From Spirogloea muscicola (taxonomy: Eukaryota; Streptophyta; Zygnematophyceae; Spirogloeales; Spirogloeaceae): a DNA stretch of 42,752 bases. The notes beneath the pieces are model-generated. The model did no database searches. It was not told where the DNA came from and was given only the letters and a program-made list of their open reading frames with translations. Where the stretch lies: positions 111,515 to 154,266 of the forward strand of contig WELB01000096.1 of NCBI GenBank assembly GCA_009602725.1, written 5' to 3'. The position numbers and the translations under genes are program-made. Every line of letters begins with the position of its first letter. The stretch's first letter is position 1. Below are positions 15,288-31,400 of this stretch, piece after piece.

Positions 15288-15529
15288 NNNNNNNNNNNNN
15301 NNNNNNNNNNNNNNNNNNNNNNNNNNNNNNNNNNNNNNNNNNNNNNNNNNNNNNNNNNNNNNNNNNNNNNNNNNNNNNNNNNNNNNNNNNNNNNNNNNNN
15401 NNNNNNNNNNNNNNNNNNNNNNNNNNNNNNNNNNNNNNNNNNNNNNNNNNNNNNNNNNNNNNNNNNNNNNNNNNNNNNNNNNNNNNNNNNNNNNNNNNNN
15501 NNNNNNNNNNNNNNNNNNNNNNNNNNNNN
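15288..15529. other. assembly gap (242 N)
   Basis: Unresolved bases are flanked by GC-rich (CCG)n sequence. The gap hides the start of the minus-strand DUF3820-like gene and most of the promoter shared with the CwfJ gene on the plus strand. Confidence 0.99.
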
Positions 15530-15536
15530 GCCGTCG

Positions 15537-18500
15537 ATGGCGGCGCCGGCGACGCCGCCGCAGCCGCGCGTGCTGCTGTGTGGCGACGCGCTCGGGCGCC
15601 TGCACCAGCTCTTTCGCCGCGTCGCCTCAGTGCGGCCGCCCCTCCATTGCCACCGCCCCCGCCGCCGCCGCCGCGTCGGAGTTTGCATGCCCACGTCCAA
15701 GCTCTTTGCTCAGGCAGCGCTGCGGCGACGGCGGCACGCCAGAGCCAGGATCGAAACCTTCACTGTCGTCACTACGGCATCTCGGTGCTCAGCGCCGCCT
15801 CCTGCCGTGCCCACTGAGCAGCAGCGCTGCGTTGCCCACCGAGGCCTGACCGCCCACGTTGCGGCGCGGAATCGAGCAGGTGAACAAGAGCAGCGGGCCC
15901 TTCGACTGCCTGCTCTGCGTCGGCCAGTTCTTCGCCGCCGACGGGGACGGCGATGGCGGCGAGGAGGTGCTGGAGTACGTGGAGGGGCGAAGGGAGGTGC
16001 CGGTGCCCACGTACTTCATTGGCGGCCACGGCCGCGGCGCCCGCGAGCTGCTGGCCCGGCTCGCCGGCGCCGGCGGCGGCGGCGGCGACGGAGACGCCGC
16101 TGAGAGCCTGGATGTCTGCGCCAACCTCCATTGGCTGTCGGGGGCCGGCTTCCTCGACGCCCACGGTAAGCCGCGGCACCCAGAACGCCCAGAGTGGCCA
16201 TGGCGGACCATTGGATGTGAGGCCATGAGGCAGCTTCCGGCGTCGCGCCAGGTCTGCGAGCTGCGTACCTGGCGAGCGCGCTTCCCACGGCGGAGGCGAG
16301 CGATAGCGGCGCCGGCGCTCCGGGGCCCGACGGGGATGAGGAGGCCAGGAGTGCTGAGCGGCTCCTCTCCAGTGCAGCGGCGAGCACAGCGACGCCCGTC
16401 GACTTTCTGCTCACATATCCTGCTCCGCTGCCGCCCTGCCGTTGTCTGCAATGGCAAGCCTCCCCTCTGCGCCTCCCGCAAGCCTCTTCTGCCTGACCAC
16501 CTGACTTCTGAGCCTAGACCTTCAGGTCAGTGGGGGTTGCAATTGCCTTCACCTTGATGAAGTATAACGAAATGACCACTCCAGACAGCCAAAATTCCTC
16601 AGGTCCTAAGTTGGCATGAGGTAGCTTCTGCAACATCTAGTGGTCACTCTTGACCCTTTACCCTTTCACTCTGCTCTTTGAGCCTCGACCCCTGAGCCCG
16701 CGGCTCTTGGCCCGCAAGCCTAGGTCCACAACAACATAAATGTCGTGACCGAGCGGTCGTTTGTTGCTCCGGACTTTCATCGTGTGTGCAAGCTGATCAC
16801 GCACCTGCTGTCGGGAGTCCTTGACTGCCATGCACGAACGACTGGCCCCGCGGCGTGCTGAGCGGCACGAGTGTCGACGACGACCCACCTGGTCTTGATC
16901 GGGAGGCCTGCGGGAGAATGGTCCCAGCAATGCTCGCGCAGGCCCTGCGGCCAAGGTCCGCGCATTTCTGACCTTCTCTGCCATGCCCTCTTCATGCGGC
17001 AGCCAGCCGGACCCAGCTGTCCTCGACAGAGCGTGGACGCTGGCGCAGCAGATGATAACAAGCGGAGACCACCGCTTGGCAACGCAGGTACCACATTGCG
17101 GGCTCCCAGGGCGTGTTCCTCTCCCGACTGCCGTACATAAATCCGGGGCCAGGTGCGGCGGTAACACGCTTTGTGGGGCTGGCGGCGGTCGGCAACCAGG
17201 CCAAGCACAAGTTCCTGCACGCGCTCTCTCTCTCCACCTCCTCATCCCTTCCTGCTCCATCTGCCACCCCCTCTCCCTACGAGCCAGATCTCCAGCCCTC
17301 TGCTAACGGGCTTGGCAGAGGCTCGTCTGGCGTTCATTCCATCTCGGCAACCGGCCTGAATGGCAGTGGACCAAGCAGGGACCAGCAGCTTCCAGCATTT
17401 GTGAAGAAAGTGATGGATGAGCAGATCGAAGGGCAGCAGTCCTGGAGGTACTCGGCAGCACCCACGAACAAGCGGCCAAGGAGGGAGGGCGGCAGCGGCG
17501 CACAAGGAGAACAGCCCCTCTGCTTCGCCTTTGCCAGGGACGGGACATGTCCTCGGGGGACTGATTGTCGGTATCGGCATGAGGAGGGCAAGGCGCCGCT
17601 CCCGCGCAATGTGTGCTACAACTTTCTCAAGGGGGCTTGTGACAAAGGCGACAACTGCAGGTGAAAGCACTACATTCATCCTTCCAGACGCTTTCCTGCT
17701 GTGACAGTGCAGACTTCGATAGCGAACGTTTATACTTGCCTGAAGGTTCCTTGGGGCCTTGCACTGGTGCTTCCATCTTTGTGAGTGTAGCTAATCGTTC
17801 ACCTGCAATGTTAGCCAATCCCGTTTTGTCTCTGCACTCATCAGAATTTTAATTCTTTCTTCAATATCTGCACCATGTTGATGCCCAACTTTTGCGCAGA
17901 TTCAAGCACTCACTGGAGGGAGGCGAGGAGGAACAGTCCACGGGCACGAGGCCTCGGCCGCAGACCACACCCCTTGCAGCCTGCTGGTTTTGCTTGTCCA
18001 GCCCTGACGTGGAGACGCACCTTGTTGCCAGCGTTGGGGACCACTGCTACGTTGCGCTTCCCAAGGGCCAGATGCTTGAAGGCCACGTGCTGCTGCTCCC
18101 CATTGAGCACTATGCAAATATGTTGTCACTGCCGCTGGAAGCTGCGGTAAGTAGCAGGCGTACATCAGGCTGCTGCAGGATCCATCCAGAGCAGCTGCCT
18201 CCACGCCGTCTTCTTATTAGTAGTCAGACTCATTGTGCTCAGTGCCGAATTGATAGTCATGATGGCACTACAGCTCTTGAATTTGTGGCTTCCTGCTTGA
18301 GCCTCAGCTCTCTTGGTTTAGGCGATAGGGTGCAGGGTTGTCGAGCATACTCCGCAGCTTGCACACATGTGCACGTACATGCAATGGCAGTTGGTGTATG
18401 CTGCTTAATATAAAATGAATCAGCTCAGTGTGCCTGACAAATGTGGCAGGATGAGCTGGAGAAGTGCAAGGCAGCTCTGCGCATGTGCTACGAGCAAGAG

Positions 18501-19597
18501 GCCAAAGCTGCCATTTTCTTTGAGAGATTCTGGCCCCTCCAGGCAGGCTATTCCCACGCCCACCTCCAAGTAAGACTTCCGGCTCTCTCAAAATGGTTGC
18601 TGCTGTCAGGATTTCAACCTTGGCCGGACTACGAGTCACTGGCGCGTACCTAGGTTCCAGAGTCAGGACAGTGCGCGTGTTTCTTAAAGCTGGTGAATTG
18701 AGTGTCTGTGCACATACATTATCCATGTTCTGTCCTTGCTCGCCTTTGCAATCAGGTGCTACCAATTCCAGAAGCACAAATAGGCAAATGCCAGGCTGCA
18801 TTCCTGGATGCGGCGGGGAGCAGTGGCTTAGAGTTCGAAGTCTTACGCGAGGGCAAGCTCCCTTACCTCATGGACTTGTGTATTCTGCATTGCTATTATG
18901 AATGGTCAATGTGGTGCAGGCTCAACAGCAATTGCATGGCAACAAGAACGTAGAGTTGGGGTCAACAGCCTATATGGTGTACTGAAGGTCCTCAAATCGC
19001 AAAACGCTGAGGTTGTTGAGCACCCAGTGCACCAGGCTCAGGCACGCCTGTGGGCAGGACTGGTTAGCTTGAGGAAGAGCACCAGAGCTGAACTGCAATG
19101 CGCGCTTGTGCCAGACGAAGCGAAGCCGAGCGAGCTGAGGAGGAGGTTACGAGGAGGGCACTACTTTGTCGTCGAGCTGCACGACGGTGTTGTGCTCGTG
19201 CACCACATGCAGCCCAAGTCGAAGCTGTCCATCCAATTTGGTAGAGAGGTCAGCCTTGCAGTCCACCTGGGCAATGCCATTGAGTTGCTCGAGCATATAT
19301 TAAAGTCGGAGCAGTTGAGGTCATGTCGGAATCAGCTCCGCCTGGTAGAATCTTGAATAATGACGAGCAGCACAGAGCTCCACCAACACTCTGCACTGTA
19401 CATTTCTAAACTTTCTTGAGTGTTACACATACTGCAGCTTCTGAACACTGTGATTGCACTTGTCACAGGTTGTTGCCAGTCTGCTAGGTATGCCGGAAAG
19501 GGCGGACTGGAAGGCCTGCCGGGTGCCCAAAGAAGAGGAGGCGAGGTTGGCTGAGCAATTCAAGCAGCAATTTGGGCCATTCGATCCCGTGAACTGA
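15537..19597 (+). CDS. CWF19L1/Drn1-type CwfJ protein with two CCCH zinc fingers, 10 exons
   Basis: Predicted nuclear protein of 653 aa. Exons: 15537-15629, 15880-16165, 16252-16414, 16836-16955, 17088-17660, 17900-18146, 18450-18569, 18756-18852, 19115-19248 and 19469-19597; all phases agree. The N-terminus (RVLLCGDALGRLHQLFRRV, then GPFDCLLCVGQFF, PVPTYFIGG) is the metallophosphatase-like region of the family. Two fingers follow, C-x8-C-x5-C-x3-H at about 366-385 and C-x7-C-x5-C-x3-H at about 397-415. The CwfJ C-terminal domains include CWFCLSSPDVETHL, a HIT-like GHVLLLPIEH and FGREVVASLLGMPERADW. Relatives act in the spliceosome and lariat debranching; yeast Drn1 assists Dbr1. Plant orthologues are annotated as CCCH-type proteins of about 600 aa. 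Intron 3 is a U12 AT-AC intron and intron 8 appears to be GC-AG (donor 18853). The start is the first ATG after the gap. Confidence 0.9.
16415..16835 (+). other. U12-type AT-AC intron (intron 3 of the CwfJ gene)
   Basis: The intron starts ATATCCT (consensus ATATCCTT) and ends AC at 16834-16835. The branch-point word TCCTTGAC is at 16818-16825, with its adenosine 11 bases before the end, which is the normal U12 distance. Removal joins ..VDFLLT to NDWPRGV, restoring a block like the conserved FLTNEWPSGV of plant orthologues. No GT-AG pair gives this join. Confidence 0.85.
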
Positions 19598-22453
19598 GGT
19601 TGCCTTGGACCCAATTCTCTTGCGAGGCCGTTCGTTCCAGCTAGAGACTGTGGTCATGCTGAGGAGCAGCTTCACAATGTCAACTTTGGTTTGTCCAAGC
19701 TCCTCCGAGTCGGATCTTGAGGTGGGCGTTACTGTCCTACAACGGGGCTGGTGTAATAGCGGTTGCAGGCATTGCGATGGGCAGTTAACTCATGATTTAA
19801 GACAGTGGCTTCCATCAGAGAGCAGAGGCTGTGACAGGCCAGCCCAGAAGACATTTCAAGGGATATCGTCAGAGCACGATTGCCGGCGGCGCAGCTGGCT
19901 GGCCCAGGCAGTCTCATACACCGCCGCTTGGGCCTCCTCTTCGATGTTGTCCACGACATTTGGGCTGGCCTTCCGCACGGTGCTGGCTCTCTGCAGCGGC
20001 AACTTGGTTTGCTGACGAGTCTGTCCTATTTTGTGCTTTAAGCGCCTTTCGATCCTCTGGACCTTGCCCATATATTCTGGCTAGCATTTCACAGCCCTCG
20101 CCCCCTTCGGAATATTCTTTCTTTCTTTGGAATATCCCAATTCTTCATCTTCACAGGCCTGGCCCCCGTTGAAGAGCTGCTTGTTCTCTTGTGGGGGCTT
20201 TGCCACACATCTAGTCGATTCTGCTGAGCTAGCCTTTCGCAATCACTACCTCTGTGGAGAAGCTTTCGTTGCTTGGCCGGTTGGCTGCGCGGAGACGCTG
20301 CCCATGCAAGTCTGCAAGAAGAAGTGAGCTCTTCCAAGAAGAGAATATCGTGTATTTGAAACAGTCGAAGGCCAATACGGCCAAGTGCGAAGGCAAGCAC
20401 ATCTAATGACAAGAGGGGCGGGGGGCCGTGAAAATCCAACCTATTAAGAAAGAATGGACAAGGTCCAAAGGGCCGAAAGGCGCCAAATCCACAAAGCTAT
20501 TCAAGGAATTACAGCAACTGGGTGCGGTGTGCGTGTGGAATGAAAGGGTGGTGTATTCAAGCCAATAAATCTCTTAGGCAAGAACTAGTGCAACTGGACT
20601 GGGAGCTTCGTTAAACCGAATCAATAGCCGCAAGTCGGAGTAACCACTAGCTGGTAACGAGGCACCCAAACAAAACTCAGAGAAGAGTGCTAGCTCACAG
20701 GAGGTAGGGGCTGGGAAAGCCAGCCCAAAAAGGATGGACAAGGTCCAAGGAGCCAGAAGGTGCCTAAAACCACACAGCTAGACACGAGACTACCGCAGGT
20801 GGATGCTTGGTGACCACGAGTGAGCAGTAGCAAGTCGGAGTAACTCGCGGGCTGGGAAAGAGAGAAGGCGCGCGGGGTGCATGAAATGAAATGGAGGCCA
20901 TTTCAAGCCGATACATTGTTCAGGCAGAGTCTAGGGCAAACTAAGCAGGGCTACATAATATGGAGACCTGAAGTAAGGTGCCTAAGGTGACATCAGTAAC
21001 CACGGGTGAGCACAAACAAATCCGACAAGCTAACTTGGGGAGCTGGAGCGCCGCCACGAAAGCCGGAGGCCTGACTCAGAGCGCGCCCTGCACGTTGATG
21101 AAGAGCCAATGCTTGCGAACGCTGCAAACTAAGTGAGAGCCGCATTCTATGATATGCAACTAAGGCCTGCGGAATGCTGGAGTGCCTGGGGAAAGGAAAG
21201 TGCTCGCCCATTGAGGATAGGGGCTTGAGAAGAAAGCGCGGCCAGATTGACTGGTGGCTGGGAAAGGCCAGCCCAAAGGAATGGACAATGTCTGAGGGAG
21301 CCCGAGTGCGAACGACTAGGACTAAGACATCAGCCAGGGAACGCTCAGTAACCTCTAGTGAGCCAGCCCAAATAAGTATGAACATGGTACGAGAAGGGGG
21401 CCAGGGGAAGCGCTAAGAAAAACAAGCACACAAAGGAAGAAAGCAGCTACGAATCACTCAGTCACCCCTGCTAAGCAACCGCAGATCAGAGATGCTAGGC
21501 TCCTGGAAGTGGGTCCCCTGGCCAGAGCCAGAGGCAGCAGCGAGGGCTCTGCCGGCAGGAAGGTGCAGCGCGCGAGACGGCCAGGCGCTTACGGAACACT
21601 TGCGCCAGCGACCCGGCTGCAGGAAAGTCTACCGGCTCCCCATGGAAGCGACGGGCGATGGTGTGGCGGGCGAGCTGGGAGAGGCACTCAGCCTACACCC
21701 AGATGCAGCAGCTGAGGCGCGGCCTGCCAGTGCACTGCGTTGCGTGAGCCTGGGAACAAGAAGTTGCCTCGGGCCGGCGGGCCGGTTGACCGGGAAGGAC
21801 CCGCTAATCATCGGGCGCCCGACGGGCTGGCGGGCGGCGGGCGCGTTGACCAGCTGTCCTCTGCAGGCCTGCGGGCTGGGCTGCAGCGGGGCGCCTTGCG
21901 GATGCCCCTTCCGGGCCGTCTTGCGGAAGCGCGAGGCGGCCCAACATCGTCGGGGCCGGCCCGCGGGGCCCGCAGAGGATGCCCGGCACGTGCTCGGGCG
22001 GCGGCTATGGCGGCCGGGAGCCCCCGGCTATGGCGCCGGGGCGGCTATGGAGGGCCCGGCTCGGTGGCTGTCCCTTCCACCACGCCCGGAGGTCCTGCAG
22101 GCCAGCGCCGCCGCCAGCTCCGGAGCCGCCGCCGCCGCCGCCGCCGCCGCCGTCGCCGGCCTTCCGCCGGCTGCCAGTCTCGGCTTTGGCTCCGGCGCCG
22201 GCATCAAATCGAGCCTGCCACGGCGAGCCGGCTGCCAAGGGAGCGCCGGCGCCCCTCGCCGCCCTATGAGGGCGCGCCGCGGGCCGATCGAGGCAGCGAA
22301 GGCGGCGCTCCCGCGGCGGCCGCGCGCCGGAGAGCTCTAGCGAGCGCGATGCGGGCGGCCGCCTAGCGCCGGCGAGGCTCGGACGATGATGGCTCTATCG
22401 CTAGCCCGAGCTCGGCATCTGCAGGGCCGGCGCGTCTGGCCTGCCGTCGCATA
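19598..22453. other. repeat-rich intergenic region and receptor-kinase 5' region
   Basis: From 19600 to 21430 there are several copies of the dispersed repeat in both orientations. Frames such as 20439-20089 (-) and 20071-19856 (-) are built from repeat words (aaggtccagaggatcgaaaggcgc), so I do not call them genes. From about 21490 to 22450 the DNA becomes very GC-rich with CCG runs, as expected of the promoter and 5' UTR of the receptor-kinase gene. The long frames there are compositional. Confidence 0.5.
20455..21180. repeat. dispersed repeat copies (20455, 20718, 20890, 20999)
   Basis: Recurring words include aatggacaaggtccaaaggg, ccgaaaggcgccaaa, cacacagctagacacgagac, gtgaccacgagtgagca and caagctaacttggggagc. 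They appear in the same order at about 20455-20530 and 20718-20850, then continue at 20999-21180. On the minus strand this part reads as a frame ending SLSDLFVLTRGY, a peptide tail that recurs in other copies. Confidence 0.65.
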
Positions 22454-25400
22454 ATGCGGGCCTGGCGGCTCGCGTCTTCCCTTGCTCTTGGCGCTCTCGT
22501 CGTGCTCCTTGCGAGCAGCCCCGTCGCGCCTGGCCATGGTGAGCCTGTGCGGCCGATCCTTGGCAGTGGACTCTGCACGCGCACGCTGGACGCCCTCGCC
22601 TTCCCTAACGAATTCACCACTTGCTCCTGGGCTCCGGCTAGCTTCAGCGATTTCAGCCGGCGATAGGTAGCCTAGATTAGCAACGAGCAGGCTGGGGGTT
22701 TGCTCAGTACGAGGAGCGCTGACCAGCTGGCAATGTGAAGGACCTTGCTGACCCTCACTCTCACTCACGCAATTGAGGATGGTGGCTGCTGAGCGGCGGC
22801 AGGGCTGAGCTGGTGTGTCGTTGGCGTGGATGGAATAAAGGAGTGCCTGGAGACACTTCAGCACTTGAAGGGGACTGCGGCAGGGGCTACCTGGAGCTGG
22901 TGATGTCATTCACACTCTGCTGGACGTCCTGCTAACTGAGAAGCTGGCCAACTGTCTTGCTATGACACCAATGACTATCATTTGAAGGAGAATGTAGCAG
23001 TACAAGGTCGCATGCAGAGCTTGAGGAGCCTACTACTCACTTCCTTGCACAGTTACCAGTGGTGCACTTGAGGTCTTGCTCTAGTCTGAAGAGCTTGTCA
23101 AAATTCACTGCTCGTAGCCTTCATTTACTCAATATTGTGCTACTGCTTGATGCTGACGACCTTCAACGTTCTTGCAACCAGCACCACGAAGGCAACATTT
23201 GGTGACTGTGAGGTTGCGCTCAAGAATGGAGACGCTCACCTGGCCATGCTGGAAGGCCGCACGACTTCAGGAAGTTCTCTAGAGAGGGATCCATTGATGG
23301 GTTGGCTACTGGATGGTGTTGTGCACGCCCGGCCTATCTCAGATACAGGTCTTGTCCGGGGGCTCTTTCTCGACTTTCTGCGTAGCAGCGCCTCATCGAC
23401 CTCCCATGGGGTCCTGCACAAGGAGGAGCAGCAGCTTGTCATGGGCGTTGTAGTACCAAACTGCGAGTTCCTTCAGCAAGTCAGACGAGAGGATCTTGTG
23501 GGCCTGCGGCTTCACGAATGCGCACAACTTCAGTGCCTGGAAAGCGACGTGATTAATGTGACTGCAATCAGGCTCACTCGGGCAAGTCTGCAGGAGGCTG
23601 TGGGACAGCACAGCCTCACCAGATTGCCAGCTCATTTCAGGCACATCCTGTCCCCTTCATGTCTTGGCTCTGTGAGGCACTTGTGCACGAGGTGCTTAGC
23701 TGGGGTGTTGTGTGACGAAGTCTGATTCTTGTGGACCACAAACTGCTCAAGGGCGGTCAAGGGCGGTCAATGGCGGCAGAAATCACCAGTAGTCAGGTCC
23801 ATATCATAAGTCATTGTGCACGTCTCACGCATTATTAACACCTCCATGCACTTTTGCTGCACATGTGCAGCCTGTTGTGCAGCGACAAGAGCTGCACTGA
23901 GCTGAGTCCATCGTCACCGTGCTGGTATGCATCCATCAGCCTACTAGAAAGAATAAGCTGCATCCTGGTTGTACTCGTCAGGTCTGCTTGCCCAGGTCGG
24001 GTTGTGACTTCACTGAAGAGCAATACTAATGAGCCCGTACTCTCTGCAATCTGCTGCAGGTACTTTTCTGGGACTACAAGAGCTGCTTTGGTGCACAAGG
24101 ATGTTGAGCCAGCAGATCTTATTGCTGTCATTAGAGCTCTGCAATTCCTCATAGAGAACAGGTCCTCACAACCAGGTCCAACAGTGACGTCACCATCTTA
24201 TAAGATTTCAAGACCACAGGCACGGCTGGAGAATAGGGCTGTACAGTTTCAAAGGAGGATCTTTGGAGCATCGGCAGCTGATGCAGGGGTGTCGGGGCTA
24301 GCATTGTCAGGATCTGTCATCAGCGAGGAAGCTGCTGAGGAGAACCACCGTCTTTTAGTAGACGTCGTAGTACCAGCAAGCATGCCCACTGCCCTCCAGG
24401 TCCTCAGCATCCCAGGCCCCTCGGGGCTGCAGAGTCCGGGCCTCACTGGACCCTCCGTACCTGCGCCACCAGTCATGCCACCTCTCCTCCCTCCTTCCAC
24501 TCCTATCCCAGCACCTGATGGAGCCCCTCCGACACCTGTGGCCTCCCCTCCACCTCCATCCCCGCCTCCGGCCTTTCCACCCCCTTCACCACCTCCACTG
24601 CCACCCCCACCCCAACCTCCACCACCGCCTCCATTATCTCCTCCTCCCATGCCTCCATCGTTTCCTCCTCCCTTGCCTCCCCAGCTCAGTCCTCCCCCTT
24701 CCCCTCCTCCGCCACAGGGGTCTCCTCCACCTCCTCCAATCCACAGCCCAACTGTGCTGCAGTCAACCCCTATCCCTCCCCATGTCCCTCCTCACACTTT
24801 TAGCCCCCCACCCCTGCTCCTGCGCCGCCCACCCCCACTCTCAAATCCCCCTCCTCGGAGGCTGCTCTTTGCCCCTCCCCCTCCTCCTGACCCACCCGTC
24901 CCTTCGCCGTTGCCGGATTCAAGTCCACCTCCTCCGTTGGCCGCTTCGCCCCCAGATGATCAGTCCCCAGTGCCTTCACCTCCCTCTCCCCCATTATCGC
25001 CCCCTTCCACTCCAGCACCTCCCCCCATACTATCACCAACCAACTCATCTGGTCAACCACCACCGCCTGCCATTTCCCCACCTCCAGTAGCCACTTCTTC
25101 TCCTCCTCCGCCGCCGGTGGCTCTTGCTCCTCCTCTCAACATTGTTCCGCCACCGCCGCCCCTTCCTCTGCCTCCACCTCCCAGGACCATCTCTCAACCA
25201 CCTTATCCTCCGATCTCGAAGCTGCAGGTCCCCCCTCCGCCTCCACCTCCCGGCTTCATGCCTCAAGGTCCACCTCCTCCGTTGCCATTCAGTCCCCTCG
25301 TTACTCCTGCACCCAGCACAAAGCCGAGCCCACCAAGTCCTCCATCAGCAAAAAGGGCACCACCTGCCGGGACGCCTCACATTCCACCTCCAAAGATCCC

Positions 25401-28400
25401 CTCTCGTCTACCACCACCTGCTACTTCCGGGTCACCTCCTCCACCTGACGGTCTATTGCCGCCACCACCTGACATCGCTTTTCCACCCGTCCAATCTCCA
25501 AGCCCTCCTCCCCCTGACGCCAGCCCTCCTCCCCTGGGTGTCAGCCCTCCCCTCCCTGGTGCTGGCTCTCCAGCCCCTGATATCAGCCCTCCTGCCCCTG
25601 ATGCCAGTCCTCCTCCCCCTGATGCCAGCCCTCCTCTTCCTGATGCCAGCCCTCCTTTTGCCGATGCCAGCCCTCCCCCCCCTGGTCCTCCTCCCCCTCG
25701 TGCCAGCTCTCCTGCCCCTGCTACCAGCCCTCCTGCCCCTGATGCCAGCCCTCCTCCTCCTGATGCCAGCCCTCCTGTTGCCACTCCTTCGCCTGATGCT
25801 AGCTTTCCTCCCCCTCCCCCACCTCCATCCTTTGACAGCCCCCCTTCACGTCCTCCCCCTGTTAACCTCAGCGCTCCAATGCCGCCAATGGTGGTGCCTC
25901 CACCACCTGCACCCGCCCCCTTGATGGCACCAACCAATAGCAGCAATATTCCTTCCTCCTCCTTGCCACCTCCCTCCTTGCCACTGCCACCTCCCACCAA
26001 AGCCCCCCCTCCAGCAAGTGGCCCTGTTCTACCACCTCCTCTGGAAAGGCCACCTCCTGGTTTTCGTTCTCCAAGACCTCCTCCGCTGCCACCCTCTCCT
26101 GTGCTTGCTGTAACGCCTGCAAGTACCCCGGTCCAGCAGCCCTCAGGCATGTATACACACCATCTGCTATCGCTGTGCTTGTAAGCATAGCAGTTCTCCT
26201 CCTGTTACCTTCCAAGAAGCATGAAGTGTTCTTCTGTATGTGGTTGTGAGTGGCATTCGCTTGTGTTACATGGTGTCTGCTGCTAGCAGTGAGAGATGTG
26301 ATGCTGTTGCACCCTTTAATCATAAGGGAGCGCCTCCATTGAAGTAATTTGTCGCCATGATTTGGACGCAATATGTTGTCATGATATTCAGCTGCACCTG
26401 TGATACCGTCGGCCTCTCCCCCCATTCAGCTCGCGAGCCCACCACCCCACAGAAGGCCAGGTGGAGCAACCATGTCCTCATAACACTTGCTGACTGCTGT
26501 TTGACTTCCTCTTTGCAAAGAACATGTATGCCTGGACTTAGTGGAGCCCTTCAAGTGACGATTTCTCCGTGACCTCAGTGCCTCGTACTTTCTTTCTACT
26601 GCCTTTGAGTGCATGTGAATGGCTCCAGCTGATTCGAACTTGCCAGCATCTGGGTTGCCGCTGAACTGCACCTTCTTAGCTCTGAGATACTTGATGAGAG
26701 GGTGCTGTGAAATCTGGATAATAGTGCCTGGTGCCTTGGTTGATGGTCATGCCCTTGCCTTTGCACATCTGCAGGGGTAGGAGTGCCACGGCCTCCCTCA
26801 CCTCCCCATGCCAATGTTGGGGCACCAACACCACAACCAGCTGTAGCACGACCGCCGCCAACGCTGCCACCGGTACCCTTCATGATACGCCCTCCCTCGA
26901 GAAAGGCGCCCCCCCCGCCACGCCCTCCTGGTGCTGCAAGCCCTGCTGAGAGCCCCATGTCTCCTGTTCTACCAAGCAGCCCCCCAGGAGTGCTCGCTCC
27001 ACCCCCTCCTCCAAGTGGGATGCATGCCAGGATCCCGCCGCCAGCTGAGCAGGCACCTGCACCAATGGTACAAGCACCTCCTCCGCATCGGGGCAGAGCT
27101 CCAGCACCGCCGCTGTCATCTGTCCCTCCCACCGTTTCTCCTTTGCCTCCTTCTATGACGGCACCAACTGGCGCTCCAGTGATACAGTCAAGCTCACCTC
27201 CTCCACCAGTCACTGCACTAAACCCCACGGCTCCACCACCTGCTGCATCACCATTTCCATCACCACCTGTGCTACCCCCTCCACCTCCTCACCAACCCCA
27301 ACCACCTCAGCAACCACCCTTGCCTCCATCAACACCAATACTTGTAGCCAGCCCTCCTCCACATGTTCTCCCACCTCCAGCCAACGTGCCTCCGCCTGTT
27401 CCAGTAGCCAGCCCCCAATCACCTGTGACCTCTCCACCACCTCCCATTCTGTTACTAGTGCCTCCACCAACAACGCCAGCCCTATCACCTCCGCCCATCA
27501 CATCGATTGCAGTGCCCCCACCTCCTGTGGTGGTATTGCCGCCACCTCCACCAAATGCTAGAAGTATGGACCAACCTCTACCAAACTTAACTCTTATGAT
27601 GACTGTTGGTGATCCTGTATCATGGCTATCTCATGCACGAAAAATTCAATGAAGCAGTATGCCACTTGTGAGATTGTCGCAGGACATCAACAATCTCTCA
27701 AACACTCTCATCCAACTTCTTTTGCAAACTGCAATAGCAGCTGGGGTCAACTCTTGTACACCAACTAGTTCCTGCAAGAGCGAAACTTTATGAAGTATGT
27801 CTTTGGTTATTAGACAAATACTTGGTGCCCAGCTAAAATCATGGCATAAGCCTGTACTTGACCTCCTTCTCATGTGCAACTCTTCTGTGCAGATTGTGCA
27901 TGCCCTGTGGGGAGTATTGTAGCTCCAAGCAACTCCTTGTCCGACCCTTGTGTTTGTGCTTTACCAATGCAAGTTTTCGTCAAGCAGGCCTTTCTATCAT
28001 CAAGCAGATCGGACTTGATCTCCTATGTGACAAACTTCACCACAGAGCTGGCAAAGGGTCTCTTCCTCCGCATGGACCAAGTTGTGGTGAGCCTACCTAA
28101 GATTACCCTGTCTGATTGTTGAAGTTGTGAAACTGTTTGATATTGAAATTTTATTGATCCGAGATTTCTGGAGCTGTGCAGACCCAGCAGCTTTTTGTAG
28201 ATACAGGATCCAACGACAGTATCAACGGTGTGGCAGTGACAACATATGATATCAATGCCTGGTTGCTACCTGTGGAGCGCACTGAGCTGAATTCGAGCGA
28301 GGTTGCACGAATAAGGATGCAGATAGAAGGGCACCTTGTTAAGTTTGACCCGACTATGTTTCCTGGAGCGTATGAGATCATCTACATCCTGGACCCTGGC

Positions 28401-31400
28401 AAGCACATCACAGCCAACTGCACCCGTTCTTACACATGTGGACTGTAGCACATCCCCTTGCACATTCTACAGTTACTTACGTTTGTAATGAGACATTATG
28501 CTTAACAATGTGCAAGCTCTGCCCTGTAAGAGATGTGAAGCTATGACAACAGGCAGAAGCTGTCTGTAGTGATGATTGGTGCAGCTCGAGTCAATGCTAA
28601 AATATGTACTTTCTGGCCGTCAGGACAAAAGCCCCCATTGTCGCCTCCACCTATCCTTGCCATAAGCACCCCCGGAAGCACCAACCCTCCTAGTAAGGAT
28701 CCTGTGGCTGGGAAGGGCCAGGGAGGTGGCTTCTCCGCAGCGCTTATCGCACTGGTGGTCATCCTTCCCCTGGGCTTCTTGTGTCTAGCTGGGGCTTTGG
28801 TATGGTGGTTGTACAACAAGCGCAGGAAGAAGCAACAGCAAGTTGCGGCAAGCCGTGCTACTGAAGCCTCTCCATCATCCAAGCATACAGGTGTGCTTGT
28901 GGACATTGTGGGATGGTTTGAGTGCATGTGCAACACCTGATGAGAGCAGTGCAGCTTCACACTTCCTGTATGCCTGTGGTCTTACCTCTTCAGACATGTT
29001 TGTGAGGAGTATACAGTGCAAGTGTAGGCCATTGTCGTTGGCTTTCATCATCTGCCATCAGCTGTCTGCCACAATAGACCTACCATGGCCACCTTGGGTG
29101 TTAGCAGGCACCTACTTGAGCACAGCTACAGATACACTAACATGGCCTCCTACCTGACTGTACAGGTCCTCCAGAAGAAAGCCCCTTTGCAGCAAATGGC
29201 TCCGCCACAAATTCTGCAACGCTGTCGCTGGCCACTTTGCAGTCCTTCTCGGGAAATGCTAGAGTTTTCTCTGCAGCTGAGCTTGAGAAGGCCACAGACA
29301 GTTTCCATCCTGACAACATTCTTGGACAGGGTGGTTTTGGCAAAGTGTACTGTGGAGTCCTTGACGATAGGACTGAGATAGCGGTCAAGGTAAGCAATGC
29401 TAGCATTGAGGATGGAGTAGGATTGTCTTGCAGCTGATTGGATTATTGGACTTCGACTTTGTGCACTTCGTAACTGTCTTGCCAGCTGCTTCTTGATTCA
29501 CAGGTGTTCATCAAAATTTTAAAGACAAGATTTTAGTTTGGATGAGCTCACTTGCATCCCAACCATGCAAATGTCTTGATTTTGCCGACGGGTTTTCTTG
29601 GCCGCAATCACGGTGCAGGTGCTCTTAAGAGGCGACAATCATGGTGCCAAGGAGTTTGTTGCCGAGGTCGAGATGCTGTCTTGCCTCCACCATCGGAATC
29701 TGGTGGCTCTATTAGGCATTTGCATTGAGGCATCATACAGATGCCTTGTGTACGAGCTCGTTCCTAACGGGTCAGTGGAGTCCCACCTGCACGGTAAGGG
29801 CTTGCTCCCTCAGATACCATTACTAATATCTTATCTGGACCACTCTTGGTGTGAGTGTGACCTGATTTGCACTCTCCATGGCCGCACTTGAAGTGCATTA
29901 TTGATAGTGGACAGACTGCTTTGTGCTTGTACTTCTCTGTAGCGCAAGGAAGCAGCAGCTTTGAGGTGCTTGTACTTGTTTTGGTGGCACTGTCAGGTGT
30001 GGACAAGGGAAGGTGGCCATTGACTTGGGCCAATCGTCTGAAGATTGCCTTGGGAGCTGCTCGGGGCTTGGCATATCTTCACGAGGACTCAAATCCTAGA
30101 GTCATCCACCGTGATTTCAAGGCATCAAATATATTGTTAGAGCATGACTGCACACCAAAGGTGTCAGATTTTGGGTTGGCGAAAGCGGCTGTTGATGGAG
30201 AGCAGAATGTGCATGTCACAACAAGAGTCATGGGTACATTTGGGTATGCAGAGCGCCTCCTGTCGCTGTGTTCCTTAGATAGTGGCATTTCTTTGTCATT
30301 GGCCAAAATGCATGTTGATTGAATAGTGTTGTATAGTATCATGAGTCATATGCACACAGAGCTCTGCTGAGTGTGCACAAGATAAGATACTCTTGATAGT
30401 CGCCTCTTTCGCTGAAGGCTGTGAGACAGCCAGGTATCTTGCGCAGGTCTCAATCTGTGCCGTGAACGTAATTGTGTTGGTTTTGTTTTGGGCACAGGTA
30501 TGTGGCTCCAGAATATGCCATGACAGGGCATTTGCTAGTGAAGTCGGACGTGTACAGTTATGGGGTTGTTCTTCTGGAGCTTTTGACTGGGCGCAGGCCT
30601 GTGGACATGAGTCAACCGGAGGGTCAGCAAAATCTTGTGGCCTGGGCCAGGCCACTCCTCACCAGGTCCCTTCTCCTCTTTGCCACAAGTGCTTGCCTCT
30701 CATTCACTCGTCTTGTGTTACTGTAAACTTCATTCACTTTAATGCACATGATTGGACATGGTGAGGCTGGTGGTTGCTTGACAAATGTTATGGGGTACGA
30801 TGCTCCTTATGGAGTCTCGCTCACATCTCAATCTGCTGTGAATGTCAAGCAAACTCATTCATCTCACTGACTGTTGTTGCATGAGATTGCCTTTGGCAGC
30901 TCTGAGGCTTTGGAGAGCCTGGTTGATCCTACCCTGAGTGGGACCTATGCCCACGATGACATGGCTCGGGTGGCAGCCATTGCTGCAATGTGTGTAAACC
31001 CCGAGGTCACACACAGACCTTTTATGGGGGAAGTTGTACAGGCACTAAAGCTCGTCTGTACTGATAGCGAAGAGGATGATGTTACCTACAGCCAGCCATT
31101 CAGGTCGGTGTTATGATATCACTATGTGTTAGTCTTCTTGTTCAAAGATTGGCCCTTCCATCTTAGCAGTGAGGCAGCTCAATTATCATGTCATGCTCAC
31201 CTATGACCATGCTGTGCTCATGAAGAGAATGCATTTTCTAAGGAAGACCCAGCAGCTACACATCATAGCGCCGAAACCATCAGGTGGCAATGTCCACTGC
31301 CTTTCTTTAACCTATGAACATGCACCATTGCTATTGCTCTTGCAGCCCTTCAAATAGGAGGTACCAGGATCTGCAGGATCTCACGGCCATGTATAGGAGA

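Follow-up and report, generated by a model that had tools for sequence, protein, structure and literature searches.

Introns with AT-AC ends and U12-type splice sites are known from land plants, intron 4 of the RNA-related gene CBP20 being one example (PMC5932401). The share of AT-AC introns among U12 introns was given as 26% in Arabidopsis, 23% in soybean, 22% in rice and 13% in maize in one compilation (PMC7367187, Table 2) and as 4.8% in Arabidopsis as cited in PMC5932401, so that their standing as a small minority, claimed in an earlier note on the DNA described here, depends on the source. Among algae, Larue and Roy (PMC10639083) reported minor introns in Chara braunii (166) and Klebsormidium nitens (110), both of which had been thought to be without them; on that basis, minor splicing is expected in a streptophyte alga. 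An earlier survey recorded no minor introns in green algae (PMC2846911), and the terms chlorophyt- and chlamydomonas are absent from the main text of PMC10639083. Here, we describe a 421-nt AT-AC intron of the U12 type in a gene for a CWF19L1 protein, located in a window of 42,752 nucleotides (C96:111515-154266) from the genome of Spirogloea muscicola (153.1 Mb in 471 contigs). Like CBP20 intron 4, it combines AT-AC ends, U12 sites and an RNA-related host gene; unlike in that case, the host gene is CWF19L1.

The intron occupies positions 16415-16835 of the window on the forward strand, in phase 2, as delimited by sequence, splice-pair and motif scoring. By direct reading, it starts with ATATCCTGCT at 16415 and ends with CATGCAC at 16835. 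Its 5' splice site, ATATCCTG (16415-16422), matches RTATCCTT at seven of eight positions, and its branch site, GTCCTTGAC (16817-16825), matches TTCCTTRAC at eight of nine; the 3' splice site AC lies at 16834-16835. The predicted branch adenosine at 16824 is 11 nt before the intron end, inside the range of 10-15 nt given for U12 introns in PMC2426677. The remaining six delimited CWF19L1 introns are GT-AG, with 2-4 of eight matches to RTATCCTT and at best 5-6 of nine to the branch site, so that non-GT-AG ends occur in one of seven (the count covers the introns ahead of the last coding region). ATATCCT followed by TCCTTRAC-N6-9-AC within 1.5 kb was found as a single pair in the window, both strands considered, and in six of 300 random first-order Markov windows (mean 0.02); the pair in the window coincides exactly with a conserved exon junction. 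On these motifs, the segment is an ordinary, well-supported U12-type AT-AC intron.

AT-AC termini do not alone define U12 introns (PMC3584512), and some introns with such ends are removed by the major spliceosome. That the CWF19L1 intron belongs with these would sit well with the local U6atac, which pairs poorly with this site in the canonical register (see below), but it is highly improbable given the U12-like 5' splice site, the near-consensus branch site at the right distance, and the last intron bases, GTCGGGAGTCCTTGACTGCCATGCAC, in which no polypyrimidine tract was seen by eye.

The reading frame points the same way as the motifs. Removal of the segment joins the exons as ..STATPVDFLLT/NDWPRGVLSG.., with a threonine codon split AC|G, and restores the VDxLLTxxWP motif of two solved CWF19L1 proteins, PDB 8ro2 and 8ro1, which we take to be the human and worm proteins, respectively. 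In the phmmer alignment, the motif spans the join without a gap (VDILLTSPWP in 8ro2 and TDILLTSVWP in 8ro1, within the aligned stretches VDILLTSPWPKCV and TDILLTSVWPADI). Among GT-AG and GC-AG pairs with donors at 16330-16499 and acceptors at 16700-16899, none kept both exon sides; the 22 open in-frame alternatives were all GC-AG, and DWPRG was lost in every one. Splits at CA-CA, AC-GC or CA-TG would yield the identical mRNA, which no GT-AG or GC-AG pair would; we know of no functional splice pair of the first three kinds, and the AT-AC termini are fixed by the reading frame. An accident of annotation, in which the segment stays in the mRNA, or splicing uses a GT-AG or GC-AG pair and the protein has lost the motif, is the least probable explanation, since the in-frame GC-AG combinations that would allow it all delete DWPRG, retention leads to a stop codon within 30 codons, the motif is conserved in both solved proteins, and no second gene copy was seen when the host protein was compared with its own genome (10 of 10 matches on C96).

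From these motifs and this frame, together with the protein family and the small nuclear RNA (snRNA) genes described below, we infer that the segment is a real U12-type intron, AT-AC in subtype, which would be removed from the CWF19L1 pre-mRNA by the minor spliceosome (probability about 0.93).

The host gene was modelled on the forward strand with exon 1 at 15537-15629, its start ATG lying just after a gap; the adjoining run of 242 N (15288-15529) may hold the true start or first exon. Exon 2 (15880-16165) is followed by exon 3 (16252-16414), ending in ..VDFLL-AC, and, after the AT-AC intron, by exon 4 (16836-16955), beginning with G-NDWPRGV... Exon 5 (17088-17660) encodes a CCCH finger region, exon 6 (17900-18146) part of CwfJ_C_1, and exon 7 lies at 18450-18569; the last coding region (18756-19598, with an approximate end and inner introns not delimited) encodes CwfJ_C_2. 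Pfam matches were obtained for CwfJ_C_1 (2e-31) and CwfJ_C_2 (1.4e-13), in addition to CCCH fingers. The best PDB matches were to CWF19-like protein 1 (2.3e-76, then 4.4e-69), and further ones to CWF19-like protein 2 and to components of the 3'-end processing machinery with CCCH fingers; the N-terminal half (residues 5-228) matches lariat debranching enzyme 4peh (E 2.3e-5). Like 8ro2 and 8ro1, the protein has both CwfJ domains and a Dbr1-like N-terminal half; it differs from them by the inserted CCCH finger region, an architecture known from plant homologues. Factors of the CWF19L1/Drn1 type act at the lariat stage. The earlier note had described a U12-type intron with AT-AC ends that joins FLLT to NDWPRGV in exact phase inside a gene of the CwfJ/Drn1 family, and that description is borne out in all its parts (U12 type, AT-AC ends, phase and host family). 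No report of CWF19L1 as a host of U12 introns was found in the literature searched, which consisted mostly of abstract starts and passages.

The same note had predicted that the organism keeps the minor spliceosome and had pointed to the genes for U11, U12, U4atac and U6atac snRNAs. Genes for three of these were found above the Rfam cut-offs in the same genome, which agrees with the prediction: U12 with three matches (80-81 bits), U6atac with three (83.2-85.5 bits) and U11 with four (46-60 bits); for U4atac the search came back empty, as detailed below. The U12 copies keep the branch-site reader AAUGAGUAAGGAAAA, and U11 starts with AUAAAGGG in three of four copies (L007-L009) and with AUAGAGGG in the fourth (L010). 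At nine of the ten snRNA loci, a TCCCA box (-66 to -75) and a TATA-like box (-29 to -33) were observed, the latter with a loose pattern that was widened after the sequences had been read, the box being irregular in the U6atac copies. The two boxes stand 42-43 nt apart in the U11 and U12 genes but 35-37 nt apart in those for U6atac, which end in a T run. In plants, the upstream element RTCCCACATCG lies at -70 and the TATA box at -28 to -30; in U6 and U3 genes the two are nearer to each other by one helical turn, and the closer and wider spacings mark Pol III and Pol II snRNA genes, respectively (PMC9845283); the spacing observed here matches that pattern. The fourth U11 copy (L010:1501-1639) has neither box, has an A-rich stretch after it and looks like a retro-pseudogene. 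Promoter-bearing copies number three each for U11, U12 and U6atac, which would suit a triplicated zygnematophyte genome, but CWF19L1 was found once.

With these components, U11 would pair through AAAGGG with UCCU of the intron 5' splice site, and U12 through GUAAGGAA with the branch site, bulging the adenosine at 16824. The U4atac/U6atac.U5 particle would then join, U6atac would replace U11, and two transesterifications would link AC to G and thereby re-form the codons for LLTNDWP. The major spliceosome would take the other six delimited introns of CWF19L1, which are GT-AG.

A second U12-type intron, with GT-AG ends, was found in two delta-COP paralogues, on C88 and C124. It starts with GTATCC.. 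(GTATCCTTC or GTATCCATA), ends with TTCCTTAACCAGCAGCAG, and lies in phase 0 between ..RLLSKL and VPEYC... The spliced product of 105 residues aligns with coatomer subunit delta (5a1u) without a gap (E 4.2e-45); a Pfam search of this product gave no match. By motif, the tally is thus three U12-type instances in two genes. PMC10639083 set a criterion of at least three called minor introns, whereas the three counted here were judged by motif and not by its program. Unlike in Chara and Klebsormidium, few U12 introns are evident here by pattern.

Several observations weigh against removal of the CWF19L1 intron by a minor spliceosome. U4atac was not found in an Rfam search of the genome at E 0.001, a result that does not show its absence; a first U4atac pattern gave three matches against four in the backward control, none of them U4-like, and a second gave 16 against three, with none of the 15 loci scored (of 16) recognized as U4 or U4atac. 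A genome scan for TTCCTTAACY-N5-9-YAS returned 44 matches against 145 in the backward control, and RTATCC was present in 12 sense and 11 antisense cases among 95 flanks of TTCCTTGACY matches. Finally, AGCCGA, the stretch of the local U6atac that should face the 5' splice site, pairs with that of the window at two of six positions in the canonical register.

The 44 TTCCTTAACY matches include 16 of one repeat family and one place listed twice; the 28 flanks that were read cover 27 distinct non-repeat places and one repeat example. In these flanks, RTATCC occurs 11 times in sense and four times in antisense. When ten candidates were translated and judged by eye, a clearly coding join was seen in the two delta-COP loci only, the other eight being undecided or of non-coding appearance. 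The TTCCTTGACY-N5-8-YAS scan gave 212 matches against 97 in the backward control; its 95 flanks were taken among the first 100 matches listed, five repeated places having been dropped. RTATCC is not enriched in them, so U12 introns do not account for the excess. The two branch-site scans do not support a large set of U12 introns and give no sign of many further canonical ones. Perfect-match patterns catch only some U12 introns, the branch site of the window itself fitting neither, so that the scans bound canonical U12 introns, not all. Loci L062 and L073 have TATCCTGCTC in common with the window intron and were dropped as candidates, since by eye they appear to run antisense to a coding stretch.

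The U6atac copies resemble Rfam family RF00619 closely, the best one scoring 85.5 bits against a gathering score of 33 over the full length (1-126), with the core GAGAGAAGGUUAGCA and a T-run end. Unlike the family, all three copies (L004, L005 and L006) read AGCCGA where the consensus reads AAAGGA, and they start with GUGUUCGUUGAGCCGAGAGAAGGUUAGCA instead of GUGUUGUAUGAAAGGAGAGAAGGUUAGCA; the canonical stretch is present in none of them. The pattern GAGAAGGTTAGCA with a G 16 bases upstream matched the genome four times (once in the backward control), namely at the three U6atac copies and at one unrelated place, and no canonical copy with this core was seen in the assembly, in whose gaps one could hide. 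In the standard arrangement, positions +4 to +9 of the U12 5' splice site (UCCUUU) form base pairs with nucleotides 11-16 of U6atac (AAAGGA). The pairing is needed in human cells, where changes in it disable splicing; such a need is reportedly the message of the title of a 1998 paper by Incorvaia and Padgett.

In that register, AGCCGA pairs at three of six positions with each delta-COP 5' splice site. The Rfam consensus would pair at four of six with the window site and at five and four with the delta-COP sites, and a canonical RTATCCTTT site would keep four of six pairs with AGCCGA. U6atac carries AGCCGA, whereas U11 stays canonical and the CC read by it is retained in the introns; of the six canonical pairs, U6atac can then form only about two or three. 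A shifted pairing, GAGC with GCUC at +8 to +11, rescues the window site (-6.3 against -6.1 kcal/mol); it was rejected as a general solution because it cannot form at the delta-COP sites, whose best local pairings reached only -3.3 and +0.2 kcal/mol, compared with -5.9 and -3.4. A re-matched 5' splice site, RTATCGG, was likewise rejected, with counts of 0 against 0 among the 28 TTCCTTAACY flanks and of 2 against 1 among the 95 TTCCTTGACY flanks. We propose, tentatively and at less than even odds, that U6atac makes a reduced or rewired contact with the U12 5' splice site in this organism. If so, the 5' splice site would be placed for catalysis by way of +4/+5, the shifted register or proteins; functionally, U11 would select the site and U6atac would then hold it by few pairs. 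A duller reading is that proteins, modifications or an unassembled U6atac gene compensate. No report of a changed 5' splice site stretch in U6atac was found in the literature searched, again mostly abstract starts and passages.

Elsewhere in the window, at 23839-27649 and 29580-30319, open frames rich in proline precede kinase fragments and may represent one or two PERK-like genes. The best PDB matches of the fragment at 29580-29888 are, by their names, plant receptor kinases, and because of this the host lineage looks streptophyte-type green. Among the scan loci, L045/L049, L062/L073 and L034/L053 each consist of two related but diverged regions that lie on different contigs, as judged from an alignment for the first two pairs and from motifs for the third, suggesting a past genome duplication or divergent haplotypes. 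The repeat family among the TTCCTTAACY matches carries TTCCTTAACTACGGTCAG (for example, C62:458289-458306) in 13 exact and three near copies on different contigs.

What does this locus add? The CWF19L1 intron contributes a U12-type AT-AC intron that is anchored by the reading frame, lies in a splicing-related gene and comes from a genome in which matching snRNAs were also found. The need for pairing between U6atac and the 5' splice site has so far been probed by mutation in human cells. A reduced contact, if true, would be a natural version of the changes that disable splicing there, and would bring the minor spliceosome closer to the major one, in which the U6 contact is weak. The U6atac change, if functional, would offer a natural test of the pairing need in minor splicing.
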